This document shows positions 3,181 to 20,531 of a stretch of DNA of 64,000 nucleotides, in pieces (within the stretch, counting starts at the first letter, position 1; every line of letters begins with the position of its first letter). The notes below the pieces were generated by a model. It did no database searches, had not been told where the DNA came from, and saw nothing but the letters and a program-made list of their open reading frames with translations. The position numbers and the translations under genes are program-made. The DNA is from Agarivorans sp. Alg241-V36 (lineage in GTDB: Bacteria > Pseudomonadota > Gammaproteobacteria > Enterobacterales > Celerinatantimonadaceae). The stretch is taken from the NCBI RefSeq assembly GCF_900537085.1, contig NZ_UNRE01000003.1:124001-188000 (forward strand), in the 5' to 3' direction.

Positions 3181-3471
3181 ATGAGCACAAAGAAAACCGC
3201 AGGAATAGTAGTGGCAGTTTTGGGCGTGATTTTGCTAGCTATTGGCGGCTTTAGCCTAAATGATATCGCAGTAGCAGAGCAGCAAGCTCAGGCGCTAGGC
3301 GGTTTATTTGGCGGTGCTGGAAATGACTTGTTAGGTGGTCTAGGTTTAGACGCCGCATTAGAAGCAGAAAGAAATAAAGCTTACGGCTTTATTGTATTTG
3401 GCATAGCTTCTATCTTAGGTGGATTATTCCTAGTTAAAACTTCTGGCGAAGACGCTGCAGAGCAAGCATAA
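3181..3471 (+). CDS. Small two-TM membrane protein, weakly DUF3185-like
   Basis: The 96-residue protein has two hydrophobic segments, residues about 7-27 and 70-86. A Gly/Leu-rich loop with the repeats LGGLFGG and LLGGLGL lies between them. The arrangement is reminiscent of DUF3185 inner-membrane proteins, but the match is weak and I would not assign the family firmly. The function is unknown. It appears to be monocistronic: a hairpin follows directly and the next gene has its own 5' region. Confidence 0.6.
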   Translation: MSTKKTAGIVVAVLGVILLAIGGFSLNDIAVAEQQAQALGGLFGGAGNDLLGGLGLDAALEAERNKAYGFIVFGIASILGGLFLVKTSGEDAAEQA

Positions 3472-3483
3472 ATAGATAAAAAT

Positions 3484-3520
3484 AATCACTTAACCTACAG
3501 CTATGGGTTAAGTGATTTAA
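3484..3520 (+). terminator. Hairpin after small membrane protein gene
   Basis: A perfect 12-bp stem, AATCACTTAACC (3484-3495) with GGTTAAGTGATT (3506-3517), has a 10-nt loop. The trailing T-run is short, so termination may be partial. The stem is positioned 12 bases after the stop codon. Confidence 0.55.
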
Positions 3521-3610
3521 TAGTATACAACCGACCAAATGCGGTAGAAACAGGATTGCATTCAATGAGTTATTTCTAGTTATCAACTCACCTCGTTAAA
3601 TGATTACTAA

Positions 3611-3634
3611 AAACATACCTATAAACATACCTAT
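3611..3634 (+). repeat. Two perfect 12-bp direct repeats
   Basis: The unit AAACATACCTAT occurs twice in tandem about 100 bp before the MalM-like gene, and a partial third unit (AAAC) follows. Its role is unknown; it could be a regulatory site or simple slippage. Confidence 0.6.
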
Positions 3635-3736
3635 AAACAGCTATTTAAACTGTAAATCACTGCAGACTAACTGATTTTTCCCTAGTTATGTATTAAGCTG
3701 TGTACGTGTAACAATCAGCTTTTAGTAGAGGTATTA

Positions 3737-4312
3737 ATGAACATTTTGACAAAAAAAATTAAAAAACATACCACCTTTATCTTTATTGTTTCGGCACTTA
3801 TTTCACCTAGCTCCCTTGCAGAGGTGTTGCAGCAAAAACCTGTTAGCTTACCTTTTAACGAGATAGTGGATGTTAGCTCAAACCCCTCTCAAAATAAGGT
3901 CGCTGATTCCAATTTAAGTTACGAGATCCCACCTAATTCTGGTCCGGTTAAAATGACAATCGCCACGTTTATCGACAAGACCATATTTGTGCCCAACATT
4001 GCTGTTCTAGATGAACATGATTCTATAGTTGCTGAATATACATCTAAAGATTTAACCTATGTTTCAATGCAACCTAGCGATAAAGATAAGTTGACCGGAG
4101 AGTTTATTATCAACCCCTTGGCTAAAAACAATGCAATGAAGGTTGTTATTTATACTACCCAGCAGGATATTGAAGGCTTCACTGAAACGTATCCGGCATA
4201 TCGCAAATTCTTAGAATCAGCGGCATTCTCTGACATTAAAATTCCTAACGAAAAAGTTCCTCATAGTAACCAAGGAACATTAGAAATTAACTTTGAGTCC
4301 GCTTATAACTAA
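3737..4312 (+). CDS. MalM-like periplasmic protein
   Basis: The 191-residue protein begins with a signal peptide: KKIKKH, then a hydrophobic stretch and SSLAE near residue 29. The mature region resembles MalM, the periplasmic protein of enteric maltose operons. Shared features are a strand pattern around VFVPNIAVLDE-like residues, an FTY-like turn (LTYVSMQPS), a conserved VVIYTTQQD segment and a C-terminal HSNQGTLEI. MalM has no established biochemical activity. No maltose transport gene is nearby, so this is an orphan copy. The assignment is by motif recognition only. Confidence 0.6.
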   Translation: MNILTKKIKKHTTFIFIVSALISPSSLAEVLQQKPVSLPFNEIVDVSSNPSQNKVADSNLSYEIPPNSGPVKMTIATFIDKTIFVPNIAVLDEHDSIVAEYTSKDLTYVSMQPSDKDKLTGEFIINPLAKNNAMKVVIYTTQQDIEGFTETYPAYRKFLESAAFSDIKIPNEKVPHSNQGTLEINFESAYN

Positions 4313-7324: not shown

Positions 7325-7834
7325 CTAAGTAGTGCGGGTATGTATATGAGAATACAGGGTGTTCGCTTCTTTCCAAGCGGATAAGCGAGAGGGAGACGAG
7401 CTAGCGTGGCCAGTCCAATGGCTTTGAGTAGGCTCTGGGTGCTGGGCTTGCGTAGCCATTGCTAACAATGGTGGCGGCAAAAACGCCACTAACAAATAGT
7501 AACTAGGGGCAATCCCTTGGTCGGCGCAATTATCGGTGCTCACTACGCGCCGAGAGATTGAAAGAAAGAATTGAGTTGATTGGGTATTTAATAGCGGCCC
7601 CGGCTCATCGGGCAAAGACTGCGATGCAGCCTGACAAGCATCAGATGAAACCGGCTCTTGTACTAAGCAGCTAATACCTACCCCAGATAGCGAATCATCG
7701 TTTGCTAGGTGCTCACCAGCGCTCACTGTGTAAGTACACACCGAGAAAATTAAGGCGATAAAAAAATGACAGCAAGCTTTAAGCAATGATTTATATACCT
7801 GTGAAAACTGCGCAGAACTATAACAGACAAACAA
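7325..7834 (-). CDS. Unknown cysteine-containing membrane or exported protein upstream of secD
   Basis: I do not recognise this 169-residue protein. A hydrophobic stretch at about residues 18-40 looks like a signal peptide or anchor (LLKACCHFF and following, ending VSAG). A second short hydrophobic segment, YYLLVAFLPPPLL, lies near residue 115. Several cysteines are scattered between them, and the C-terminus is polar. It is on the same strand as secD with a gap of about 170 bp that contains a short GCTCAG/CTGAGC hairpin. The position suggests a possible link with the translocase pair, but nothing shows it. It could still be a spurious frame. Confidence 0.45.
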   Translation of the reverse strand: MFVCYSSAQFSQVYKSLLKACCHFFIALIFSVCTYTVSAGEHLANDDSLSGVGISCLVQEPVSSDACQAASQSLPDEPGPLLNTQSTQFFLSISRRVVSTDNCADQGIAPSYYLLVAFLPPPLLAMATQAQHPEPTQSHWTGHASSSPSRLSAWKEANTLYSHIHTRTT

Positions 7835-8035
7835 GCAAAGATGTTGATCTAAACACCATTACAAAAAAATAACAGAACTCTCTCATTAAGGCTGTTTAAA
7901 TCGCTAAGGCAACTAACTGAAATAATTTATAAAAAGCATTTTCATCAATATATTTTCTTTAGCTTTACGCTGCACTTGTAAGCGGATTCCGTTCACTTTG
8001 CAATCAAAATGCCACAAATAAGTCACCTAATTGAC

Positions 8036-8051
8036 ATGTCTAGATAAGCTG
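8036..8051 (+). promoter_or_regulatory. Candidate phosphonate-regulator operator, copy 1
   Basis: The 16-mer ATGTCTAGATAAGCTG contains the near-palindrome TGTCTAGATA. It sits directly after a TTGACA (8031-8036) that could be a -35 element, about 55 bp before phnC. A copy matching at 15 of 16 positions occurs in inverted orientation just before phnE (10003-10018). Palindromic sites of this kind are bound by HutC-type GntR regulators, and the locus encodes one (PhnF). The regulator assignment is inference. Confidence 0.5.
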
Positions 8052-8104
8052 ACTGTCACATTCGAGGCCTAATTTATTGTTCAAAACAACGGCAGGATCG
8101 GCTT

Positions 8105-8929
8105 ATGAACAATCAAGTAATCACAGTAAAACAGCTGAACAAACACTTTGAGTCAAACCACGCCCTTAAAAGCGTAAACCTCAATGTTCAGCAAGGTGAG
8201 ATGGTGGCGTTGCTTGGGCCTTCTGGCTCTGGTAAATCAACCTTATTACGCCACCTCAATGGCTTGGTTAGCAGTGACAAAAACAGCAAAGGTTATATCG
8301 AAGTGCTGGGCACCCCTGTACAGAAAGATGGTAAGTTTTGCAAAACCGTTCGTAAAAGCCGCAGCCAAACCGGCTACATCTTCCAGCAGTTTAATTTAGT
8401 CTCACGCCTTAGCGTTCTGCAAAATGTATTGATTGGCGCATTAAGCGCTACACCTAGCTGGCGCAGCCTTAGCGGTCGATTCACCTTCGAGCAAAAACGC
8501 CAAGCCTTAGCCGCGTTAAAGCGCGTTGGTTTAGAGCAATTTGCCTTACAGCGTGTATCAACCTTGTCGGGTGGTCAGCAACAACGGGTGGCGATAGCTC
8601 GCGCACTGATGCAACAAGCCAAAATTATCCTTGCCGATGAACCCATTGCTTCGTTAGACCCAGAGTCATCGCGCATCGTGATGGAAATTCTCACCGACAT
8701 TAATAAACAAGAAGGCATCGCAGTTGTGGTGACCTTACACCAAGTTGACTACGCCAAACGTTATTGCCCACGAGTTGTGGCGTTAAAACTTGGCGAAGTA
8801 TTTTACGACGGGCCTAGTGAGCAGTTAACCGAAGCCAAACTCGCAGCCTTATATGGCTCGCAAACCGAATTAACCAACACCGAAAACCAAGACCAAGCAG
8901 TACCACAACTTTGGCCACAGATGGCCTAA
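8105..8929 (+). CDS. phnC: Phosphonate ABC transporter ATP-binding protein PhnC
   Basis: PhnC is the ATPase of the phosphonate importer, working with periplasmic PhnD and membrane PhnE. The 274-residue protein carries Walker [10 protein letters not shown], a Q-loop in FQQFNLV, the signature LSGGQQQR, Walker B ILADEP and the H-loop TLHQVDYA. The sequence is typical of the PhnC family, including the insertion [12 protein letters not shown]. It is the first gene of the phn locus, with an AGGATCGGCTT leader. The gene ends about 26 bases before the phnD start. Confidence 0.92.
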
Positions 8930-8955
8930 ACCCATTCAATAAGGAGATAGATGGC

Positions 8956-9963
8956 ATGTTAAAGCTAATCAAGCAGACAGCCTTTGCAACCGCAGTTGTT
9001 GCGACAGCGTTCAGTTCAACCATGGTTTCAGCTGCTGAAAAAGCGATGGACACCATCAATTTTGGGATTATTTCTACCGAGTCTCAGCAAAACTTAAAAA
9101 CTACTTGGACACCGTTTTTAGAAGCGATGGAAGAGAAAACAGGTTACAAAGTAAAAGCATTTTTTGCTCCAGACTACGCCGGCATCATTCAAGGCATGCG
9201 TTTCGATAAAGTAGACGTAGCTTGGTATGGCAACAAATCAGCCATGGAAGCAGTAGACCGTGCTGGCGGCGAAATTTTCGCGCAAACAGTTGATGCTACA
9301 GGTAACCCAGGTTACTGGAGCGTGTTGGTTACTCACAAAGACAGCCCGCTAAACAGCCTAGAAGATGTTATTGCCAAGCGTGGCGACCTTACCTTTGGTA
9401 ACGGCGATCCAAACTCTACTTCTGGTTTCTTAGTACCTTCGTACTACGTCTTCGCTCAAAACAACATTTCAGTTTCAGACTTCAAACGCAGCATGAACTC
9501 AGGTCACGAAGCTAACGCTTTAGCCGCTGCAGCCAAGCAAGTAGATGTTGCTACGGGTAATACCGAAAACATGGACCGCCTAAAAGTAACGGCGCCAAAA
9601 AAATTCGAACAGCTAAAGGTTATTTGGAAATCACCACTTATCCCTTCAGACCCAATCGTATGGCGTAAGAACCTACCAGAAAGTGTGAAAGGCGAAGTAT
9701 ATGACTTCTTCATGGAGTACGGCACTTCTGGCGACGCGCAAGAACTAGCGGTATTAGAAGCACTGCAGTGGGCCCCTTTCAAAGCCTCTAGCGACCTTCA
9801 ACTATTGCCTATCCGTCAATTGGTATTGTTCAAAAACCGCATCGTAACCGAGAACGACACCAAGCTATCTAAGGCCGAAAAAGCCGCTGAGCTAGCCGTA
9901 ATCGACGCCCAACTTGCCGACCTAAACCGCAAGCAAAGCGCTATTACTGCAATGGCTAAATAG
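8956..9963 (+). CDS. phnD: Phosphonate-binding periplasmic protein PhnD
   Basis: PhnD captures phosphonates in the periplasm for PhnCE. I place the start at the ATG at 8956, 9 nt after AAGGAG (8941-8946), giving 335 residues. The open frame reaches 8911, but that would overlap phnC. The N-terminus is a signal peptide ending MVSAAEKA. The mature part shows PhnD features: [12 protein letters not shown] near the start, [10 protein letters not shown], and [17 protein letters not shown], which forms the phosphonate pocket. A strong hairpin terminator follows directly. Confidence 0.92.
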
Positions 9964-9972
9964 CCAATTATG

Positions 9973-9997
9973 AGCTGGGCTTATGCCCAGCTTTTTT
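9973..9997 (+). terminator. Rho-independent terminator between phnD and phnE
   Basis: AGCTGGGC (9973-9980) and GCCCAGCT (9985-9992) form a perfect 8-bp GC-rich stem with a 4-nt TTAT loop, followed by six T residues. It lies 10 bases after the phnD stop. It should end or attenuate the phnCD transcript before phnE. Confidence 0.8.
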
Positions 9998-10002
9998 CAA
10001 GG

Positions 10003-10018
10003 CAACTTATCTAGACAT
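10003..10018 (-). promoter_or_regulatory. Candidate phosphonate-regulator operator, copy 2
   Basis: On the minus strand this reads ATGTCTAGATAAGTTG, which differs at one of 16 positions from the site before phnC. It lies between the phnD terminator and phnE, 14 bp before the phnE start. That is where a second promoter would be needed. Binding by PhnF is inferred. Confidence 0.5.
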
Positions 10019-10031
10019 ATTGAGAACTGAA

Positions 10032-10820
10032 ATGAATACCGAAGCAGCCATTCTTAACCCAAACAGTAAGCCTTCATGGTTAAGCTTACTATTTTGGGCC
10101 ATCGCCATCGCCGGTTTAACTTGGAGCTGGCAAGGCGCAGAAATTGCCCCAATGAAGATCTATAACGATGCTGGCAACATGGCTGAGCTAGCCAGTGATT
10201 TCTTTCCACCAGATTTTACTGACATAAATTACTACCTCGAAGAAATGCTTGTCACTCTGCACATTGCCATTTGGGGCACGATTTTCTCGATTTTTTTGTC
10301 TGTTCCTTTCGGTTTAATGTGTGCCGAAAACATGGTTCCGGCTTGGGTTTATCAACCGATGCGCCGCCTTATGGATGCCGCTCGCGCGATTAACGAAATG
10401 GTATTTGCCATGCTGTTTGTGGTTACCGTGGGTTTAGGTCCTTTTGCTGGGGTAATGGCCTTGTTCATTCACACCACTGGGGTATTAGCCAAGTTGTTCT
10501 CAGAAGCAGTAGAAGCCATCGACCCAGGCCAAGTTGAAGGCGTACGCGCCACCGGTGCTAACAAACTTGAAGAAATTGTTTACGGGGTTATCCCTCAGGT
10601 ATTGCCCTTGTGGATCTCATTCTCATTGTATCGATTTGAGTCCAATGTTCGCTCGGCCACGGTAGTTGGCATGGTGGGTGCTGGCGGTATTGGCGTTATT
10701 CTCTGGGAAAGTATTCGCGGCTTTATGTTCCCCCAAACCTGCGCAGTGATGATCATTATTGTTGCCACCGTAAGCCTACTAGATTTCGCCTCGCAGCGAG
10801 TCAGAAAACTGTTTATTTAG
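10032..10820 (+). CDS. phnE: Phosphonate ABC transporter permease PhnE
   Basis: PhnE is the membrane channel of the phosphonate importer. The 262-residue protein has about six membrane segments. The ABC-permease EAA loop appears as [23 protein letters not shown] (residues about 162-184), the site of contact with PhnC. I chose the ATG at 10032 over a TTG at 10020 because the TTG falls at the edge of the operator-like site. The ribosome-binding site is poor. The gene is followed after 11 bp by phnF. Confidence 0.9.
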
Positions 10821-10831
10821 TCGAGTTCACT

Positions 10832-11530
10832 ATGCCGCGTTATCAAGAAATAGCCCTAAGCCTAGAGAAAGAAATTAGCCATGCTTACCAAGCAGGCCAA
10901 TACTTGCCGCCAGAGCAGCGCCTTGCCGAGCGCTACAAGGTAAATCGCCACACCTTACGCCGAGCGATTGACGAGTTAGTGCTAAAAGGCTGGCTATTAC
11001 GCCAACAAGGCAAGGGCGTAATGGTGCTCAGCAAGCCGGTGCGTTACCCGCTGCACTCTGGCTCTAAGTTTACCGATAACTTACTTAATGCAGGCGCCAA
11101 ACCTAATAGCCGGGTACTAAGTTTTAGCCAAACTAACGCCAATCAACAGGTCGCCAATGGCTTAGGCATCGCCGTTGCCAGCCCGGTTTTGCAGCTTAAA
11201 ACCTTGCGTTTCATCGACCAAATGCCGATTAGCATTGTGTTTCACCACCTGCGTTTAGGCGAGCATGAAAAGCACTTAAGCCAATATCAACAAGGCTCCT
11301 TACATAGCTTTCTTAAGCAGCATTGTCAGGTGGAGTTACGCCGCCAACACACGGTAGTGGGGGCGCAACTGGCCAACCAAGAAGATTGTGCCTGCCTGCA
11401 AATAGATGGCAGCCACCCCTTGCTCACTCTGCAAACCATTAACGTCGATCAAGCACAGCAACCCTTTGAATTTTCTATCTCCCACATTAGAGCCGAGCTA
11501 GTAGAGCTCAGCTTGGAGCATCCTCTATGA
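10832..11530 (+). CDS. phnF: GntR-family transcriptional regulator PhnF
   Basis: PhnF is a HutC-subfamily GntR regulator. The N-terminal winged helix (residues about 1-70) includes PPEQRLAERYKVNRHTLRRA, the recognition helix region. Residues about 85-230 form a UTRA ligand-binding domain. It is thought to control phosphonate genes according to an effector. It sits between phnE and phnG, and its ATGA stop overlaps the phnG start by 4 nt, so it is translated with the lyase genes. The 16-bp element found twice in this locus is its most likely target. Confidence 0.9.
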   Translation: MPRYQEIALSLEKEISHAYQAGQYLPPEQRLAERYKVNRHTLRRAIDELVLKGWLLRQQGKGVMVLSKPVRYPLHSGSKFTDNLLNAGAKPNSRVLSFSQTNANQQVANGLGIAVASPVLQLKTLRFIDQMPISIVFHHLRLGEHEKHLSQYQQGSLHSFLKQHCQVELRRQHTVVGAQLANQEDCACLQIDGSHPLLTLQTINVDQAQQPFEFSISHIRAELVELSLEHPL

Positions 11531-11997
11531 GTACCCAAAACTCCAGTTCATCAGCAGATATCGCCCAGCGTCAGCAATGGATGAGCATCTTAGCCAATGC
11601 CTCCTATCAAGAACTATCGCGTCGCTGGCAACAACTGGGTCTAGACCCTGAATGCGAGATTATTCGCCAGCCCGAAATTGGCCTAGCCAAACTACAAGGC
11701 CGCATAGGTGGCAGTGGCGAGCGCTTCAACTTCGCCGATACCACCATCACTCGCGCAGCCGTGCGCCTTAACAATGGCACCTTAGGTTACGGCTACCTGC
11801 GTGGCCGCGCCAAACAACATGCCTTGCTCAGCGCATTAATCGACGCGCTGATGCAACAAGCCGAATACGCGCATAGCCTGCAAGAAGCTGTGATTCAGCC
11901 CTTGGCAGAGTTACAGCAACAAGCTAAACAGCAGCAAGCTACGCGCGCCGCCGAATCGAAAGTAGATTTCTTCACCGTGGTTCGAGGAGAAGACTAA
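11527..11997 (+). CDS. phnG: C-P lyase core subunit PhnG
   Basis: PhnG is part of the PhnGHIJ core complex that activates phosphonates by joining them to the ribose C1 of ATP. The 156-residue length matches the family. Visible family features are ILANASYQELSRRWQQLGLDPE, the strand IRQPEIGLAKLQGRIGGSGERFN and the segment LGYGYLRGR. It overlaps phnF by 4 nt and shares its last base with the phnH start, which implies translational coupling. Confidence 0.92.
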   Translation: MSTQNSSSSADIAQRQQWMSILANASYQELSRRWQQLGLDPECEIIRQPEIGLAKLQGRIGGSGERFNFADTTITRAAVRLNNGTLGYGYLRGRAKQHALLSALIDALMQQAEYAHSLQEAVIQPLAELQQQAKQQQATRAAESKVDFFTVVRGED

Positions 11998-12596
11998 TGC
12001 AACAAATTGAAACTGGCTTTAGCCACAGCGTACATAACGCCCAGCATTGTTTTCGACAAATTCTTAAAGCCCTAAGTGAACCGGGCCACCAAGTTGAGCT
12101 CGATAAACACCAAGGCTTCGCACCGCTAAATGCAGCCGCCAGCCAAGTAATAATGAGCTTATGTGACCAACAAACCACAGTGTATTTAAGCCCAGCACTG
12201 GGTGACTCGACCACCAGCAACATTGAACAGGCTTGGCACAACCTAAGTTTTCATAACGGTGTAATGGCAGCGACGCTTAATCAAGCCGATTTTGCGGTAG
12301 TTAGCGCCAGCGAAAACCTCAACTTTAGGCAGCTAAAAGCCGGCAGTGATGAAAGCCCAGAACATAGCTTAAGCCTAATAGTGCAAAGTACAGGTTTTAA
12401 CCAAGGGCCGCGCTTTCGTCTATCAGGCCCTGGGGTAAAACAGCCACGAGAAATTCAACTAGGCGAGCTGAGTGACAGCATCATCAACTACCTGCTAAAA
12501 CCTTGCCACCGCTACCCCCTGGGCATTGATTTCATGTTCTGTCATCAACAATCCCTGCTGGCAATTAGCCGCACTTCTAAGCTGGAGTTAATCTAA
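11997..12596 (+). CDS. phnH: C-P lyase core subunit PhnH
   Basis: PhnH is a structural subunit of the C-P lyase core. The 199-residue protein has the usual length and shows the family start FSHSVHNAQHCFRQILKALSEPG. It also has a conserved C-terminal half with LSGPGVKQPREI and HRYPLGIDFMF. It overlaps phnG and phnI by one base at each end (TAATG), so synthesis is likely coupled. Confidence 0.92.
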   Translation: MQQIETGFSHSVHNAQHCFRQILKALSEPGHQVELDKHQGFAPLNAAASQVIMSLCDQQTTVYLSPALGDSTTSNIEQAWHNLSFHNGVMAATLNQADFAVVSASENLNFRQLKAGSDESPEHSLSLIVQSTGFNQGPRFRLSGPGVKQPREIQLGELSDSIINYLLKPCHRYPLGIDFMFCHQQSLLAISRTSKLELI

Positions 12597-13711
12597 TGTA
12601 TGTAGCAGTAAAAGGCGGTGAAAAAGCCATTGCCGCAGCACATAAACTGCAAGCGGAGCGTCGCCGCGGAGATCGCGAGATTGCCGAGTTAAGTGTTGAG
12701 CAAATCAGCCAGCAGCTCAGCTTAGCCGTTGAACGCGTGATGACCGAAGGGGGTATTTATGACCGCCAATTAGCGGCTTTAGCCATTAAACAAGCCAGTG
12801 GCGACCAAATAGAAGCAATATTCTTGTTGCGCGCTTATCGCACCACACTGCCGCTGTTAGCCACTTGCGAACCCTTTGATACCAATAAGATGCAAGTGCA
12901 AAGACGCATCTCAGCCACCTACAAAGACTTACCCGGCGGGCAGCAACTAGGCCCAACTTATGACTACAGCCATCGCCTGTTAGATTTCAACCTACTGGCA
13001 GAACAGCAAGCCGATGAGCAAACGGCAGCGGCGTCTGATTCATTGGCAGATAAAACCGATGCGACCGAGAGCCAGCCCAATTGCCAAGCCTTTAGCAAAG
13101 TCTTTTCATTGCTTGAGCAACAGGGCTTAGCCCAGCCCGAACAAGATAGCGGTGAAGAGCCTGCCGATATTACTCAACAAGCCATTAGCTACCCTTGCTC
13201 TCGGGCTGCGAGGTTGCAGCAGCTTAGCCGCGGCGACGAAGGCTTTTTGCTATCGCTGGCCTACTCCACCCAACGAGGTTACGGACGTAATCACCCCTTT
13301 GCTGGCGAAATCCGCAGCGGTGAAGTGGCCCTAGAGATTTGCCCCGACGAACTCGGTTTTAAGGTCGAAATAGGCAGCATTACCCTCACCGAGTGTGAAA
13401 TGGTTAATGGCTTTGTTAGCCCAGAGGATAAAGACGCCCACTTTACTCGTGGCTACGGCCTTGCCTTTGGCTTTAGCGAGCGAAAAGCCATGGCGGTTGC
13501 GCTACTCGACCGCTCTTTGCAAACCGAGCGCTATAACGAGCCCGTTGCCAGCCCCGCTCAAGATGAGGAGTTTGTGCTGGCCCACGCCGACAATGTGGAG
13601 GCAGCAGGCTTTGTTTCTCATCTTAAATTACCTCACTACGTTGATTTCCAATCGGAACTAGAACTGCTGCGCAAAATGCGCCAGACAGGAGCCAAGCATG
13701 ACGAGCTTTAG
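12596..13711 (+). CDS. phnI: C-P lyase core subunit PhnI
   Basis: PhnI is the core-complex subunit that, with PhnG, PhnH and PhnL, displaces adenine from ATP to make ribose-1-phosphonate-5-triphosphate. The 371-residue protein starts MYVAVKGGEKAI, as is usual. It contains RAYRTTLPLLA, RRISATYKDLPGGQQLGPTYDYSHRLLDF and GYGRNHPFAGEIR, which are strongly conserved in the family. It overlaps phnJ by 14 nt. Confidence 0.94.
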   Translation: MYVAVKGGEKAIAAAHKLQAERRRGDREIAELSVEQISQQLSLAVERVMTEGGIYDRQLAALAIKQASGDQIEAIFLLRAYRTTLPLLATCEPFDTNKMQVQRRISATYKDLPGGQQLGPTYDYSHRLLDFNLLAEQQADEQTAAASDSLADKTDATESQPNCQAFSKVFSLLEQQGLAQPEQDSGEEPADITQQAISYPCSRAARLQQLSRGDEGFLLSLAYSTQRGYGRNHPFAGEIRSGEVALEICPDELGFKVEIGSITLTECEMVNGFVSPEDKDAHFTRGYGLAFGFSERKAMAVALLDRSLQTERYNEPVASPAQDEEFVLAHADNVEAAGFVSHLKLPHYVDFQSELELLRKMRQTGAKHDEL

Positions 13712-14579
13712 CCAACAAACTGCTGCCATTGATGACGCCAACCAACAGTACAACTTTGCCTATTTAGATGAGCAAACCAAACGGATGATTCGTCGCGCCA
13801 TCTTAAAGGGCGTCGCCATTCCGGGTTATCAAGTTCCTTTTGGTGGCCGCGAAATGCCCATGCCCTATGGTTGGGGAACCGGCGGCATTATGCTCAGTGC
13901 CTCGATTCTTGGTCAGCAAGATGTACTCAAAGTGATTGACCAAGGCGCCGACGACACCACCAACGCCGTATCTATTCGCCACTTTTTTAGCAAGGTGTGT
14001 GACATCGCCACCACCGAGCAAACGGAGCAGGCCAGTGTGATTCAAACTCGCCACCGCATTCCCGAGCAAGCATTAAGCAATGAGCAAATTTTGGTGTTTC
14101 AAGTGCCTATTCCCGAGCCCTTACGCTTTATTGAACCACGCGAAACCGAGACCAAGAAAATGCACGCTTTGGAAGAGTACGGTTCGATGCAAGTTAAGCT
14201 CTACGAAGACATCGTAAAGTACGGATACATTGCCACCAGCTACGCCTATCCGGTGAAAGTACATGGGCGTTACTTAATGGATCCTTCACCGATCCCTAAG
14301 TTTGATAACCCCAAATTACACCAGTCTGAAGCCTTGATGATTTTTGGTGCTGGCCGAGAAAAACGCATTTACTGCATTCCGCCCTACACTGATGTACACA
14401 GCCTCGATTTTGAAGATCACCCTTTCAGCATTCAGCAATGGGACGAGCCTTGCGCCCTATGCGGCAGTCACAACACCTTCCTCGATGAAGTGCTTATCGA
14501 CGACCAAGGGCAACGCATGTTCATTTGCTCAGACACCGATTACTGCCAGAAGCAGCAAGCAGGAGCTAATCATGACTAA
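13698..14579 (+). CDS. phnJ: Radical-SAM C-P lyase catalytic subunit PhnJ
   Basis: PhnJ breaks the carbon-phosphorus bond with a [4Fe-4S] cluster and SAM, releasing a hydrocarbon and a cyclic ribose phosphate. The 293-residue protein keeps the unusual cluster motif CX2CX21C: Cys252 and Cys255 in CALC, then Cys277. A further cysteine, Cys283, lies in CSDTDYC and corresponds to the thiyl-radical cysteine of E. coli PhnJ. GYQVPFGGREMPMPYGWGTGG is near the N-terminus. The enzyme therefore looks active. It overlaps phnK by 8 nt. Confidence 0.95.
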   Translation: MTSFSQQTAAIDDANQQYNFAYLDEQTKRMIRRAILKGVAIPGYQVPFGGREMPMPYGWGTGGIMLSASILGQQDVLKVIDQGADDTTNAVSIRHFFSKVCDIATTEQTEQASVIQTRHRIPEQALSNEQILVFQVPIPEPLRFIEPRETETKKMHALEEYGSMQVKLYEDIVKYGYIATSYAYPVKVHGRYLMDPSPIPKFDNPKLHQSEALMIFGAGREKRIYCIPPYTDVHSLDFEDHPFSIQQWDEPCALCGSHNTFLDEVLIDDQGQRMFICSDTDYCQKQQAGANHD

Positions 14580-15399
14580 TCTCGCTAGCCAAGTTGCGCC
14601 AAGCAAGCCTGTTACCTTTAGTCAGGCAGACCAAGCCTTATTAGAGGCACAAGACCTCAGCATGTTATATGCGCCCGGCAAGGGTTTTGAAGGTGTTGAT
14701 TTAAGCCTTTACCCAGGAGAAGTATTGGCCATTGTTGGCGAATCAGGCTCTGGCAAAACCACTCTGCTAAAAACCTTATCTGGCCGCTTAGCCCCGCAAA
14801 GCGGCAGCGTGAATTACAGCTTAGAAGACGGAAAAACCGCCGCGCTTTATCAGATTAGCGAAGCCGAACGCCGCAGCTTAATTAGAGCTAACTTCGGCAT
14901 TGTGCATCAACACCCCATGGATGGGCTGCGCCCAAGAGTATCGGCTGGCGGCAATATTGGTGAGCGGCTAATGGAAAATGGCTGGCGTAACTACCAGCAA
15001 ATTCGCGAACAAGCGCTAACTTGGCTTAAAGCGGTGGAAATAGACCCAAGCCGCATCGACGATATGCCGCTTACATTTTCTGGCGGCATGCAGCAGCGCC
15101 TACAAATTGCCCGCAACTTAGTCACGCATCCCAAGTTGGTGTTTATGGACGAACCCACCGGCGGTTTAGACGTATCGGTGCAAGCGCGCCTATTAGATTT
15201 AATTCGCAATTTAGTCACCGAACTGCAACTCGCGGTGGTTATTGTTACTCACGATCTTGCAGTAGCAAGGTTGCTGGCGCACCGAATTATGGTGATGAAA
15301 CAAGGCCAAGTGGTAGAAAGCGGATTAACCGATAGGGTGCTAGATGACCCGCGTCATCCCTATACCCAATTGCTGGTTTCATCGGTTCTTCAACAATAA
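14572..15399 (+). CDS. phnK: C-P lyase ABC-type ATPase PhnK
   Basis: PhnK is an ABC-like ATPase that docks on the C-P lyase core and is needed for activity, but it is not part of a transporter. The start is the ATG at 14572, overlapping the phnJ stop by 8 nt. The longer open frame begins inside phnJ and is not credible. The 275-residue product has Walker A GESGSGKTT, the signature FSGGMQQR, Walker B LVFMDEPTGGLD and the H-loop VTHDLA. Its first 25 residues are longer than usual and vary. Confidence 0.92.
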   Translation: MTNLASQVAPSKPVTFSQADQALLEAQDLSMLYAPGKGFEGVDLSLYPGEVLAIVGESGSGKTTLLKTLSGRLAPQSGSVNYSLEDGKTAALYQISEAERRSLIRANFGIVHQHPMDGLRPRVSAGGNIGERLMENGWRNYQQIREQALTWLKAVEIDPSRIDDMPLTFSGGMQQRLQIARNLVTHPKLVFMDEPTGGLDVSVQARLLDLIRNLVTELQLAVVIVTHDLAVARLLAHRIMVMKQGQVVESGLTDRVLDDPRHPYTQLLVSSVLQQ

Positions 15400-15423
15400 T
15401 CGCCTAGCTTACAAGGAGTCATC

Positions 15424-16125
15424 ATGCATCCCGTCATGATTGCTAAAAACATCGACAAAACCTTTGTATTACACAACCAAGGGGCTGCGCGATTACCGGT
15501 ACTACGCCAGCAAAATTTAGAGATTTTTGCCGGCGAATGCTTAGTGCTAAACGGCAGCTCGGGCTCGGGTAAATCAAGCCTGTTACGCTCGCTTTATGGT
15601 AACTACCAAATCGATCACGGTGAGTTACTGATTCGCCAAGGCGAGCAATGGCTCGATTTGGCCAGCGCTCCCGCTCGAGAAATTATTGCGCTACGCCGCG
15701 ATACCATTGGCTGGGTCAGCCAATTTTTAAGAGTTATTCCGCGTTTATCGGCCTTAGACATTGTTATGCAGCCAATGCTAGAAAATGGCATTAGCGAAGC
15801 CCAAGCAAAGCCTAAAGCGCAATCGCTATTGCAGCACTTAAATGTGCCAGAGCGACTATGGGGCTTAGCGCCAGCCACCTTTTCTGGTGGCGAACAGCAG
15901 CGGGTAAACATTGCCCGCGGATTTGCCCTCGATTACCCGATTTTATTATTAGACGAACCCACCGCTTCTCTCGACAAACACAATGCCCAGCAAGTGGTTG
16001 AATTGATCCTAGCCGCCAAGCAGCGCGGTGCCGCCATTGTGGGTATTTTTCACGATGTATGGGTTCGAGAACTGGTCGCAGACCGTTTACACAACATGCA
16101 AGCCGCGACCCCAATAGCAGGATAA
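15424..16125 (+). CDS. phnL: C-P lyase ABC-type ATPase PhnL
   Basis: PhnL is the second ABC-like ATPase of the C-P lyase system, required with PhnGHI for the first nucleophilic step. The 233-residue protein has Walker [10 protein letters not shown], the signature FSGGEQQR, Walker [12 protein letters not shown] and the H-loop [14 protein letters not shown] lies 8 nt before the ATG. The gap to phnM is 4 nt. Confidence 0.93.
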
Positions 16126-16129
16126 GACA

Positions 16130-17266
16130 ATGATTATTACTAATGTAAACATGGTGTTAGAGCATGAAGTTGTTAAAGGTTCATTAGAAGTACGCGAAGG
16201 CCGAATAGTGGCGCTCAGCGATACCTTAAGCCAACACAGCAGCGCCATTAATGGCGACGGTGCCTACCTATTACCCGGCTTAATTGAACTACACACCGAC
16301 AACCTCGAGAAGTTTTTTACCCCTCGGCCCAAGGTGAGTTGGCCTAGCGGTTCGGCCATGGCCAGCCATGATGCCTTAATGATCTCGAGCGGTATTACCA
16401 CGGTGCTAGATGCCATTGCGCTGGGTTACATAAACGACCACGGCACCCGCTTGGCTAACTTAGAGCGCATGTTGCACACCATTGTGAATAGCCAACAACG
16501 CGGGGTTAACCGCGCCGAGCACATGCTGCACCTGCGCTGTGAACTGCCTAATGCCGACACTGCCAACATTTTCGAAATCTTGGTTGAGCAAGGGCCTGTT
16601 GCCATGGTGTCGTTAATGGATCACACACCTGGCCAACGCCAGTTTGTCGATAGCGAAAAATACCGCACCTACTACATGGGCAAATATGGCTTAAACGATC
16701 AGGAAATGGCCAGCTTTGAAGCCGAGCAAACGGCGGCATCTGAGCAATGGTCAGACGCTAACCGCAAACACATTGCCGCCTCAGCGCGTGAGCGTGGTAT
16801 CGCGCTTGCCAGCCATGACGATGCAACGGTAGAGCATGCGCTAGAATCAGCAGCTTTAGGCTGCGCAGTGGCCGAATTCCCTACCACCGTGGCGGCGGCC
16901 AAGGCCTCACACGATGCCGGCTTACAAGTGATGATGGGCGGGCCAAACATTGTGCGCGGTGGCTCGCACTCTGGCAACGTAGCCGCGGCCGAGCTTGCTC
17001 GCGAAGGGGTATTGGATATTTTGTCTTCTGATTATTACCCAGCAAGTTTATTAGATGCAGCCTATATGGTGGCGAACATGGACGACAATCACTACGATCT
17101 TTGCCAAGCCATCAACATGGTAAGCCTAACTCCAGCTCATACCTTAGGCATGGACGACCGTGGCAGCATTTGTGAAGGCAAGCGAGCCGACCTAGTGCTG
17201 GCCAAACCCAACGACGAGCGCTTGCAAGTGCTGCAAGTATGGCGCGAGGGAGAGCGAGTATTTTGA
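16130..17266 (+). CDS. phnM: Alpha-D-ribose 1-methylphosphonate 5-triphosphate diphosphatase PhnM
   Basis: PhnM removes pyrophosphate from the ribose-phosphonate triphosphate to give the PhnJ substrate. The 378-residue protein is an amidohydrolase-fold metalloenzyme. Metal-site motifs are LIELHTDNLEKFFTPRPKV near residue 55 and SHDDATVEH near residue 225. A late DYYPASLLDAAY carries the catalytic Asp region. Its stop overlaps the phnN start (TGATG). Confidence 0.94.
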   Translation: MIITNVNMVLEHEVVKGSLEVREGRIVALSDTLSQHSSAINGDGAYLLPGLIELHTDNLEKFFTPRPKVSWPSGSAMASHDALMISSGITTVLDAIALGYINDHGTRLANLERMLHTIVNSQQRGVNRAEHMLHLRCELPNADTANIFEILVEQGPVAMVSLMDHTPGQRQFVDSEKYRTYYMGKYGLNDQEMASFEAEQTAASEQWSDANRKHIAASARERGIALASHDDATVEHALESAALGCAVAEFPTTVAAAKASHDAGLQVMMGGPNIVRGGSHSGNVAAAELAREGVLDILSSDYYPASLLDAAYMVANMDDNHYDLCQAINMVSLTPAHTLGMDDRGSICEGKRADLVLAKPNDERLQVLQVWREGERVF

Positions 17267-17868
17267 TGACTACGCTAACTGCCAGCGAACTAAGCGGCGA
17301 AGCCAAGTTGTTTTACTTGGTGGGTCCTTCAGGCTCTGGCAAAGACAGCATCATAAACAGTTTGCGCAGCCAGTTAGAAGCCGACAGTAACTTGTTGATT
17401 GCTCACCGCTATATCACTCGCGCAGTTGATGACAGCGGTGAAAATCACATTGCCCTGAGTGTGCCCGAATTTACCCACCGCAAACACAGCGGTCTATTTG
17501 CCATGGATTGGCAAGCCAATGGCTGCAACTACGCAGTAGGTAACGAAGTAAACACCTGGTTAAGCATGGGCTTCTCGGTGCTGTTTAACGGCTCTCGCCA
17601 GCAAATTCCTTTGGCTGAAGAATTGTTTGGCGAGCGCTTACGGGTTATCGCCCTTGATGTTGAACCGCAAGTACTGGCCGAGCGCCTACGCAAGCGCGGG
17701 CGTGAGTCTGAACACGATATCGCAGCACGGCTGCGCCGCAGCGAGCAATATCAAGCATCTCTACCAGAAGATTGTTGGCGCTTAGACAATAATCGCAATC
17801 TAGACAGCACCGTGAGCAAACTGCTCAAATACATTGAAGCACAAACCACAGAGTTATATATCCAATGA
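17266..17868 (+). CDS. phnN: Ribose 1,5-bisphosphokinase PhnN
   Basis: PhnN phosphorylates ribose 1,5-bisphosphate to PRPP, the last salvage step of the pathway. It has a guanylate-kinase-like P-loop, LVGPSGSGKDSI, and family segments HRYITRAVDD and LRKRGRESEHDIAARL. The start is taken as the ATG at 17266, which overlaps the phnM stop and gives 200 residues. An ATG at 17239 in the same frame lies inside phnM with no good ribosome-binding site. The gene overlaps phnP by 4 nt (ATGA). Confidence 0.92.
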   Translation: MTTLTASELSGEAKLFYLVGPSGSGKDSIINSLRSQLEADSNLLIAHRYITRAVDDSGENHIALSVPEFTHRKHSGLFAMDWQANGCNYAVGNEVNTWLSMGFSVLFNGSRQQIPLAEELFGERLRVIALDVEPQVLAERLRKRGRESEHDIAARLRRSEQYQASLPEDCWRLDNNRNLDSTVSKLLKYIEAQTTELYIQ

Positions 17869-18617
17869 AACTAAGCCTACTTGGCACCGGTAATGTTAGA
17901 GGCTGCCCAGTTTACGGATGCGATTGCCCAGCCTGCCAGCGAGCAATTTTAGACCCAAGTAAAGCGAGATTACTGTGTTCTGCAATGCTTGAAGTTAATG
18001 GCCAGCAAATCCTTATCGATGCCAGCCACCCGCAGTTACAAACACGTTTTCCGGCAGGAAGCATTGATGCCATTTTGCTGACTCACTTTCACATGGATCA
18101 TGTTCAAGCCTTGTTTGAATTACGCTGGGGGCTATGCGAGGCCATTCCGGTTTATCATCCCGATGACCCACTGGGCTGTGATGATTTATTTAAGCACCCC
18201 GGCATTCTCGATTTTCAGCCAGCGTTAGCTGCCATGCAGACTTTTCAGCTAGCAAACATAAGCGTTACCCCGCTGGCTTTAAATCACTCTAAGCCCACCT
18301 TAGGCTATTTGTTTAGCAGCGAAAAAGGTCGTATCACCTACCTCACCGATACGCTAGGCATTCCCGACAAAAGCTGGCAGCAATTACTGCGTCGGCCACC
18401 CAAATACGTAGTGATTGATTGCAGCACTTCGCCACTGCACAGCTCAAGTAATCACAACAACCTTAACGACGTACTTGAACTTGCACATGCTCTACCCGAC
18501 AGCACGTGGGTACTCACTCACATTGGCCACGACTTAGATGAATACCTAATGCAATACCCCAAGTGCTTACCCAGCAATGTGCTGGTTGGGCATGACGAAC
18601 TATGCCTAAGCCTATAA
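17865..18617 (+). CDS. phnP: Phosphoribosyl 1,2-cyclic phosphate phosphodiesterase PhnP
   Basis: PhnP opens the cyclic ribose phosphate made by PhnJ. The 250-residue metallo-beta-lactamase-fold protein shows THFHMDHVQ as its dinuclear metal motif (HxHxDH). It shows the PhnP-specific [11 protein letters not shown] zinc knuckle near residue 17 and later metal ligands in [14 protein letters not shown] and THIGHD. All expected ligands are present. It overlaps phnN, and the next gene starts after 16 bp. Confidence 0.94.
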
Positions 18618-18633
18618 AAGTAAAGGAATAACC

Positions 18634-19287
18634 ATGGCTATTGTAGATCCCGGTGCAAACTTAAACTCCCAGCCCAGTATTGCGAATAGCAGTAAAGTGA
18701 CTAGCTCCGAGCTAGGCAGCTGGACCGAAATTGGCGAACGTTGCTTGTTAGATAACGTGCAATTTGGTGACTACAGCTACGCGCAAAATGATGTCGATAT
18801 CGCCCTATGCACGGTGGGTAGATTTGTCTCAATTGCTTCTAGCGTACGAATTAACCCCAGCAACCATCCGTGGTGGCGCCCTAGCTTGCATCACTTTAGC
18901 TATCGCCCACAAAAGTACGGCATGGCCGCCAAGGTAGATGAGCAAGTATTTGATTGGCGAGCAGACAACAAAGTCAGCATCGGCCACGATGTTTGGATAG
19001 GCCACGGCGCGATCATTATGCCAGGGGTAAATATTGGCAATGGGGCAATTGTTGGCTCTGGCAGCATCGTTACCAAAGACGTGCCTGCTTGGCACATTGT
19101 GGTAGGCAATCCTGCCAAGGTATTAAGACCACGCTTTGATAAAGCCGATACCGGAGAGCGCTTAGAAAAACTCGCTTGGTGGAATTGGTCACACGACAAA
19201 CTGGCCGAAGCCCTGCCCTTGTTCCAAGAAGACTGCATAAGTTTTCTTGAGCACTATGAAAAGCAGACCATTAGCGAAGGTGCTTAG
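18634..19287 (+). CDS. Phosphonate-locus hexapeptide-repeat acyltransferase
   Basis: The 217-residue protein has a left-handed beta-helix acyltransferase domain: [21 protein letters not shown] and [23 protein letters not shown] are hexapeptide repeats. It has the [15 protein letters not shown] insertion seen in the xenobiotic-type acetyltransferases. Proteins like this recur in C-P lyase operons and are classed as a phosphonate-metabolism transferase family. Whether it acetylates aminophosphonates, as unrelated PhnO does, is inference. It lies 16 bp after phnP, and its stop codon overlaps the next start by one base. Confidence 0.85.
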
Positions 19288-20531
19288 TGGCCGCAAATTT
19301 ATTGCGAGTTCGCTTAGCTACACATGGAATGGCGATTGCCCAAACTCTGCTGTGGGCAAGCCTTTACTATAGCTTTCCGGCGATGCTGCTCACTTGGCAT
19401 CTGCAACTTAGCTGGTCTATTGCTGATGTGTCTTTAGCCTTTACCATCGCGCTGGTAGCCTCGGCGCTTTGCTCTCCGTTTATCGGCCGTTTAATCGACA
19501 AGGGCTTTGGCCCGCAGGTGCTAAGCCTTAGTGCATTGTTAGGCGGTTTAGCCCTGTTGGCTGTAAGCCAGGTTGAACACTTATGGCAATTCTATGGTGC
19601 GTGGTTAATGCTGGGTTGTGCCAGTGCCGGTTGCTTATACGAGCCTTGTTTTGCCTTTCTTACTCGCTATCGTGGCAGCGATGCTAAATCGGCAATTACT
19701 AAGGTCACCTTATATGCTGGATTTGCCGGCACAGTAAGCTTTCCCCTTTGTCATTATTTAGTTGGCTTAGTGGGCTGGCGCGCCACCTCCGTAAGTTTGG
19801 CCTTAATCGTTATATTTATTGCAACACCACTTTTGTTTAGCTGCGCCAAGCTGATACAAGGTGCACAAAGATCTTTGTTGTCTCAAGCTAAAACTCGCCT
19901 TACTTCTACGCCTTCAAAAGGGGTGAGCCATTCGCTTAAAAGCGCGATCTTTTGGCTTATCGCCATGGCTTTTTCACTTAGCGCACTTAACCACACAGTA
20001 CTGGTTAACTTTTTACTGCCCAGCATGCACGCTATCAACTTTACGCCTAACGATGCGGTGTTAGTAATGGCAATGATAGGCCCTATGCAAGTGGTTGGGC
20101 GCATTGCCATGATGAGCGTAGATAAGCGGCTTTCAAACACCGTGATAACCATGCTGTGTTTTGGCAGTTTACTGGTGGCAGCAAGTTTGTTGTGGCGGCT
20201 TAGCACTAGCCAACAAGTCATTTGGCTATTTGTTGTATTGCAAGGCAGTGCCTATGGGGTAACCAGTATTTTGCGGCCAGTATTAACTAAGCAGCTATTA
20301 GGTAAAGAGAGTTTTGGAGCGATATCGGGGTTGTTAGCAGTGCCCTATTTACTCGCCAGCGCGAGTGCGCCGTTTTTAGGAGCTTATGCTTGGCAAGTCA
20401 ATCAGCAGCAGGGGATCTTTAGTCTAGTGAGCCTAAGTGCAGGCTTGGGTTTTGTAGCAATGGCAGCCTGTTGTTTGCAACAAGCTGCCAAAACCACTAA
20501 CTATCAGAAGTTAACGGCTAAGCCTAAGTAA
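19287..20531 (+). CDS. MFS transporter at the end of the phn locus
   Basis: The 414-residue protein has about twelve hydrophobic segments and the major-facilitator motif FIGRLIDKGFG between TM2 and TM3. It starts at a GTG that overlaps the preceding stop codon by one base, so it belongs to the phn transcript. Substrate is unknown. It could export a C-P lyase product or import an organophosphorus compound, and neither is shown. Its last 28 bases overlap the convergent outer-membrane protein gene. No terminator is visible at the junction. Confidence 0.85.
   Translation: MAANLLRVRLATHGMAIAQTLLWASLYYSFPAMLLTWHLQLSWSIADVSLAFTIALVASALCSPFIGRLIDKGFGPQVLSLSALLGGLALLAVSQVEHLWQFYGAWLMLGCASAGCLYEPCFAFLTRYRGSDAKSAITKVTLYAGFAGTVSFPLCHYLVGLVGWRATSVSLALIVIFIATPLLFSCAKLIQGAQRSLLSQAKTRLTSTPSKGVSHSLKSAIFWLIAMAFSLSALNHTVLVNFLLPSMHAINFTPNDAVLVMAMIGPMQVVGRIAMMSVDKRLSNTVITMLCFGSLLVAASLLWRLSTSQQVIWLFVVLQGSAYGVTSILRPVLTKQLLGKESFGAISGLLAVPYLLASASAPFLGAYAWQVNQQQGIFSLVSLSAGLGFVAMAACCLQQAAKTTNYQKLTAKPK

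Follow-up and report, generated by a model that had tools for sequence, protein, structure and literature searches.

Two candidate PhnF operators in the phn locus of Agarivorans, one inside a Pho-box-like array and one behind a terminator-like hairpin

Why does the phn locus of Agarivorans sp. Alg241-V36 carry the same short element twice, once before phnC (site 1) and once between phnD and phnE (site 2), and what could a regulator do at the second of these places? An earlier note on this DNA took the two elements for operators of PhnF at the promoters of two co-regulated transcripts, phnCD and phnE-MFS. The window, i.e., the whole stretch of 64,000 nucleotides that was analysed, contains a full C-P lyase operon on the + strand (8105 to 20531; Table 1), and what was called phnE-MFS consists, more exactly, of phnE, phnF, phnGHIJKLMNP, a gene for a hexapeptide transferase and the MFS gene. 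The products of phnL, phnM, phnN and phnP and the hexapeptide transferase (TIGR03308) score over their NCBIfam cut-offs; phnG, H, I, J and K are named from the gene order, which is conserved in relatives, and not from family models. The presence of a HutC-type GntR regulator in the same locus was borne out, as the phnF gene is situated within the phn/C-P lyase operon and its product passes the cut-off of NCBIfam TIGR02325 (208.7 bits vs. 156.8), carries GntR and UTRA domains (Pfam) and has the ligand domain of E. coli PhnF (2fa1) as its best match among solved structures. It scores under the cut-off of the narrower PhnF model NF007486 (227.1 of 363).

The nearest NCBIfam model to the MFS gene that ends the operon (19287-20528, +) is one for arsenite efflux, with a score far under the cut-off (139.7 of 400 bits), and by tblastn this gene is phn-linked in 6 of 13 relatives, besides two of another genus (L039-L043, L048, L049). 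Adjoining the phn locus, a gene on the - strand (21301-30042 of the window) encodes a 2913-aa repeated-domain protein, adhesin-like in appearance.

Table 1. Features of the phn locus in the window, with positions, strands and basis or remark
Feature	Position	Strand	Basis or remark
Pho-box-like array, half-sites at 8009, 8020, 8031, 8053; 11-bp register	8009..8059	+	motif scan; 11/11 loci
Candidate operator 1, palindrome-like ACATGTCTAGATAAGC, 13/16 to ACTTGTCTAGACAAGT	8034..8049, core 8037-8046		sequence, footprint
-10-like hexamer TAATTT, 10 nt after last Pho half-site	8070..8075	+	layout as at the genome's own pstS
phnC, ATP-binding protein	8105..8929	+	TIGR02315, NF007438 over cut-off
phnD, substrate-binding protein	8956..9963	+	TIGR03431 over cut-off
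Terminator-like hairpin GCTGGGC-TTAT-GCCCAGC, then TTTTTT	9974..9997	+	terminator score, conservation
Candidate operator 2, ACTTATCTAGACATAT, 13/16 to ACTTGTCTAGACAAGT	10005..10020, core 10008-10017		13 nt behind hairpin
phnE, permease	10032..10820	+	TIGR01097 over cut-off
phnF, GntR/HutC regulator, proposed binder	10832..11530	+	TIGR02325; GntR + UTRA domains
phnGHIJKLMNP, hexapeptide transferase, MFS gene	11527..20531	+	downstream of operator 2

The two 16-mers, ATGTCTAGATAAGCTG (8036-8051, +) and ATGTCTAGATAAGTTG (10003-10018, -), differ by one mismatch, and the 15/16 identical positions that had been claimed for them hold: they are the only matches at up to one mismatch in the whole 64 kb window, and none of 100 dinucleotide shuffles of the window contained a match that close. 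At up to three mismatches, at least two matches occurred in 17/100 shuffles, which makes this a weak test, and the 10-bp core alone with one mismatch has 4 matches in the window, which is not unusual (26/100 shuffles had as many). The 15-mer TGTCTAGATAAGYTG is present in exactly two copies in the whole 4.7 Mb genome, both at the phn locus. Both elements are copies of one ACTTGTCTAGACAAGT-like palindrome, so the near-palindromic core described in the earlier note stands and extends to a conserved unit of 16-18 bp; the “inverted” arrangement does not stand, because the strand of a palindromic element has no meaning. The inversion was therefore rejected as a meaningful feature, and in one relative (G007, locus L047) both copies point in one direction, its phnD-phnE copy being oriented opposite to that of the window. 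A genome-wide search with the 16-bp pattern gave no further match without mismatch and three other places at one mismatch, and a wider PhnF regulon in the source genome was set aside, with no additional mismatch-free match found.

Whether such sites accompany phnF elsewhere was judged from the 52 of 394 genomes of the order that were positive in a PhnF search at E 1e-30 or better (own genome included), the loci of all 51 relatives (13 + 38) being compared. In these relatives the 10-bp core at 9/10 or better was found 47 times in 16,801 bp of phn gaps vs. once in 230,878 bp of phn coding sequence; the count covers phn coding sequence and the relevant gaps and excludes cores farther upstream (e.g., in G449 and G008), and “coding” means aligning to the window's proteins, so that the gap figure includes sites over the additional initial codons of enterobacterial PhnF. 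Combining 42 distinct sites into a symmetrised profile gave ACTTGTCTAGACAAGT, in which the central TCTAGA hardly varies, a form shaped in part by the 13-of-16 entry rule and by the symmetrising itself. It fits the operator consensus of the HutC subfamily of GntR regulators, NyGTMTAKACNy (PMC4494728; here and below, papers are cited from excerpts), from which the window's copies deviate at one base of one half-site, having AT for AC. The helix stretch NRHT[LVI]RRA is present in 57/57 PhnF rows, and in five rows of other orders (L123-L127, left out of all counts of 52) the recognition helix reads the same as in the others despite weak or no sites (best operator matches 9-12/16; p ≤ 0.033 in 3/5), so the helix alone is no proof of the motif assignment.

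The internal operator takes several places among the 52 genomes. It lies in the phnD-phnE gap in ten of them (7 of the genus Agarivorans, G046, G430 and G007; 13-15/16), in the phnE-phnF gap in 13 (12-16/16), and in front of phnF in the four in which no linked phnCDE stands ahead (G008, G455, G593 and G480; 12-15/16). In a further 23, all of the enterobacterial family f18, the sites are over the first codons of phnF (9-12/16; p > 0.05 in 4/23), where protein conservation may account for part of the match, and in two (G022, G449) there is no internal operator with a CTAG core. In the f18 loci (L088-L121) the operator-like sequence, e.g., ACTTATCCAGACATCC or ACTTGTCTACACATCC, extends over approximately codons 2-6 of phnF, and the site would therefore be inside the regulator's own reading frame. 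Before phnC, a site at 12/16 or better is present in 22 of 36 linked loci (23 once the frame-shifted phnC of G449 is placed) and in none of the 11 f18 loci among these 36. The phnC of G449 (L086, about 3369-4100) changes frame part way, by a real break or by an assembly error.

In the tree of PhnF, one change is needed for each of the two groups, phnD-phnE and phnE-phnF (ungrouped rows uncounted), and G022 and G449 are placed inside the phnD-phnE group, with G007 and G449 among the long branches. The placements together with this tree therefore indicate that the internal operator stands ahead of the phnF-containing segment, its place shifting by one gene between groups. Sites of this kind follow phnF across the 52 genomes; they are strong in roughly half of these and weak in the enterobacterial group, and each of the 7 Agarivorans-genus genomes compared retains both positions. 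This tracking, the fit to the HutC consensus and the 7/7 conservation support the proposal that the elements are PhnF operators, and the absence of the 16-mer from related phn loci, named earlier as a ground for giving the proposal up, was not what we found, since sites are present in relatives. PhnF probably binds at both sites, and of all that we propose here this is the most secure.

Site 1 stands inside a Pho-box-like array that the earlier note does not mention. CTGTCAY-like half-sites are found at -96, -85, -74 and -52 from phnC, and the slot at -63 (8042) is occupied by operator 1, which interrupts the usual adjacent pair of half-sites. Measured against the definition of a Pho box in PMC4415409, the array has the CTGTCAT-like direct repeats in an 11-bp register before a -10 box. 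This register gave the best array in 11/11 loci tested, with at most 1/500 shuffles as high in any, although these p values are optimistic because the offsets were picked after inspecting the loci. In the same genome, a PhoB-like gene (TIGR02154 over cut-off) is preceded by a Pho-box-like pair, CTGTAATAAATCTGTCAT, and a pstS-type gene by CTGACACATAACTGTCAC, 10 nt and TATAAT, which is the same layout as that of the phnC promoter. A search of the whole genome for CTGTCAY pairs showed no excess (303+328 matches vs. 338+344 in the reversed control), and our reading of the array therefore relies on place, not on counts; the matches inspected closely were those before phoB and two pst-type genes.

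The 16-mer of site 1 ends 20 bp ahead of the -10-like box, and if phnC transcription starts near 8082, as we infer, the 18 bp of operator 1 would span roughly -49 to -32 relative to that start. Because operator and array overlap, competition between PhnF and PhoB at site 1 is suggested. The position of operator 1 before phnC is kept in 12 genomes of the phnD-phnE clade (11 computed, G449 by eye). Loci of the phnE-phnF group have their upstream operator at a greater distance from the aligned start of phnC (-113 to -193), and the nesting is therefore a feature of the Agarivorans/Motilimonas/G007 clade. In another relative (G008, L051), a Pho-like TTGTCAT, 10-11 nt, TAGTAT and then a 15/16 PhnF operator are found before a phnF-first C-P lyase operon, the operator standing at the likely start point of that operon.

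At site 2 the surroundings are of another kind. A terminator had been assumed after phnD, and a hairpin with a T-tract is indeed found there; in 10/10 loci with a phnD-phnE operator such a hairpin lies 13-14 nt ahead of the operator, the stop-to-stem distance varies from 8 to 18 nt in the same loci, and nine of the ten have 11-12 nt between the operator and the start of phnE, G007 having 2 or 8. All ten have the G+C-rich hairpin and T-tract of an intrinsic terminator, with d from 7 to 35 when scored with the d'Aubenton Carafa constants. The automated terminator scan of 7800-11600 returned 6 terminator-like sites (shuffle mean 4.8), none of them at the phnD-phnE hairpin, probably because some of its T's were taken into the stem. 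Some hairpin, trivial in a few cases, is present in all 36 phnD-phnE gaps tested, but the T-tract sum of the best hairpin reaches at least 3.5 in 10/10 gaps with the operator vs. 0/26 without it (highest 3.0), and the terminator score alone is passed by 10/10 vs. 3/26; these counts are not independent, since the group with the operator is essentially one clade. Within the Motilimonas family, the two operator genomes have the T-tract and the two genomes without the operator lack both.

Across seven distinct stems in nine loci, pairing is kept in 49/49 cells and 4 cells are changed on both sides, a number reached by 4/500 shuffles; as the count of 2 both-side-changed stem pairs is reached by 198/500 shuffles, the covariation is modest. 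The stem of G007 is unrelated in sequence, yet the 13 nt to the operator are kept. Of the 24 loci whose phnE-phnF gap holds an operator-like core, only two (G009 and G011, again at 13 nt) show a T-tract, so the pairing of terminator and operator is not general. The phnC-phnD gap (8814-8929 to 8956) has neither an operator nor a positive-score terminator-like hairpin in any locus tested, and the hairpin-operator unit is therefore special to the later gaps.

What, then, could PhnF do at the two places? On the observed sequence features, conservation and spacing of both sites we build a model to which we give an even chance and in which PhnF binding, PhoB binding, repression, roadblock and ligand are presumed: both elements would be PhnF operators, the first blocking PhoB and polymerase and the second forming a post-initiation barrier at the terminator. 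Operator 1 would sit in the middle of the PhoB-type array and over the presumed -35 region of the phnC promoter, where bound PhnF would keep PhoB and RNA polymerase away, so that phnC would be transcribed only under phosphate starvation and once a phosphonate-derived ligand had freed the site of PhnF. Operator 2 would act after initiation, as a barrier 13 nt behind the phnD-phnE terminator. With PhnF bound, polymerases leaving phnD would be halted at the terminator/operator unit and the permease, PhnF and the C-P lyase would be off, and with PhnF released, part of the polymerases would read through into phnE and beyond; PhnF would also limit its own synthesis. A single repressor may thus control two different transcription steps.

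Intrinsic terminators usually release the transcript 7-8 nt past the stem. From this point 5-6 bp remain to operator 2, and since polymerase extends farther than this in front of its active site, a collision at the terminator is expected. The collision of PhnF and polymerase might aid release, or it might halt polymerase before the hairpin can form. As a tentative possibility, operator 2 and the terminator could be one device, a repressor-gated intrinsic terminator, PhnF acting on initiation at operator 1 and on termination at operator 2; the fixed spacing of 13-14 nt would then follow from the way in which polymerase, hairpin and PhnF collide, and at least two origins or relocations of the gated unit would be needed, one at phnD-phnE in the Agarivorans/Motilimonas/G007 clade and one at phnE-phnF in G009/G011. 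That the operators follow phnF through rearranged loci speaks for the model. Against it, the near-constant distance from the operator to the phnE start fits other constraints too, and a terminator of good score must still permit enough read-through for the C-P lyase genes.

Operator 2 could possibly be just a plain roadblock or an autoregulatory site of phnF, the hairpin merely protecting the end of the phnCD transcript and keeping the binding protein in excess, and the 13-14 nt being inherited. Hairpins occur in phnD-phnE gaps without an operator, several of them strong, the T-tract is missing at 22 of the 24 operator-like cores between phnE and phnF, and the phnD-phnE group is one clade, all of which would agree with this; less easily explained are the joint presence or absence of T-tract and operator within the Motilimonas family, and the 13 nt kept by the unrelated stem of G007 and, in another gap, by G009 and G011. 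Rather doubtful, in our view, is the arrangement of the earlier note, in which each operator represses its own promoter and the transcripts are phnCD and phnE-MFS, the second promoter overlapping operator 2 and escaping recognition because it is weak or unusual. The terminator between phnD and phnE does call for a promoter after it, the PhnF operator of G008 is at the apparent promoter of a phnF-first operon, and HutC operators often overlap promoters, e.g., that of BguR over the -35 (PMC3585215). However, no sigma70-like promoter at site 2 was better than shuffles in any of the 10 loci (p 0.56-0.88), the automated scan of 7800-11600 gave 2 promoter-like sites (shuffle mean 4.3), none at site 1 or 2, and in the phnD-phnE gap of the 7 Agarivorans-genus genomes the conserved blocks are the stem, the T's and the operator, with no Pho-box-like array seen. 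Together with the fixed spacing to the hairpin, this led us to set site 2 aside as an ordinary promoter operator and to keep that reading as a rival. The position of site 2, within the unit and past its start (transcripts as deduced from sequence), with no promoter found there, would be compatible with a roadblock, and at about even odds we favour a terminator/roadblock gate over a second promoter.

PhnF bound at both operators, which are 1971 bp apart, might also loop the DNA and so repress phnC more strongly, as two like sites within one operon could suggest and as two-site binding by PhnF is described for Mycobacterium smegmatis (PMC7866108). Nothing in the sequence demands a loop, the mycobacterial sites stand together in one promoter region, and we consider looping improbable. 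HutC repressors are, moreover, usually dimers. More improbable still is that a regulator other than PhnF, recognising a similar core, uses these sites; BguR of Streptococcus shares the core TGTCTAGACA (PMC3585215), and additional GntR-type matches occur in the genome, but the sites track phnF through rearranged loci and the exact 15-mer is confined to the phn locus genome-wide.

If the model is right, phosphonate use in the Agarivorans/Motilimonas/G007 clade would need phosphate starvation plus an inducer, and this dual requirement matters for the timing of methane release from methylphosphonate by marine bacteria. The footprint itself names a testable PhnF operator across a whole order. A PhnF regulon has been named for Pseudomonas stutzeri RCH2 (PMC5299692), and the PhnF ligand is called unknown in PMC5351497, with alkylphosphonates suggested in PMC4494728. 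In the literature within scope, outside which most subscription papers fall, we found this motif stated nowhere for PhnF, and neither a PhnF operator inside a Pho box nor a terminator-operator pair in a phn operon; its passages on PhnF give no PhnF operator for Gram-negative C-P lyase operons. PhnF operators may already be listed in RegPrecise.

The PhnF motif of M. smegmatis reportedly differs from the motif of the window. The mycobacterial system is alike in having a GntR/HutC repressor, a phn transporter operon and two sites, and differs in that both sites are in one divergent promoter region, transport is of phosphate and the operon is without C-P lyase genes (PMC7866108). Operators of the HutC subfamily share the GT-4-AC palindrome beside the pathway genes of the regulator (PMC4494728), whereas the window is set apart from these and from predicted PhnF regulons by a Pho-box-like array around one copy and a mid-operon terminator ahead of the other. 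BguR of Streptococcus pneumoniae is also a UTRA-domain repressor, and its operator, AAAAATGTCTAGACAAATTT, lies over the -35 region and has the same 10-bp core as the PhnF consensus, but its pathway is another one and no PhoB involvement is mentioned in the passages on it (PMC3585215). For the proposed function of site 2, the nearest likeness is to roadblocks, in which a repressor downstream of the start stops an elongating polymerase: PurR, CodY and CcpA are known to act in this way (PMC10310618), and Mfd removes polymerase stalled at LacI (PMC4132739). Unlike the sites in the accounts of these roadblocks, site 2 is paired at a fixed distance with a mid-operon intrinsic terminator, which, if real, would give a repressor a compact natural means of adjusting the upstream genes of an operon relative to the downstream ones. 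A looser likeness to such a terminator-operator unit is seen in the Pol I terminators of yeast with Reb1.
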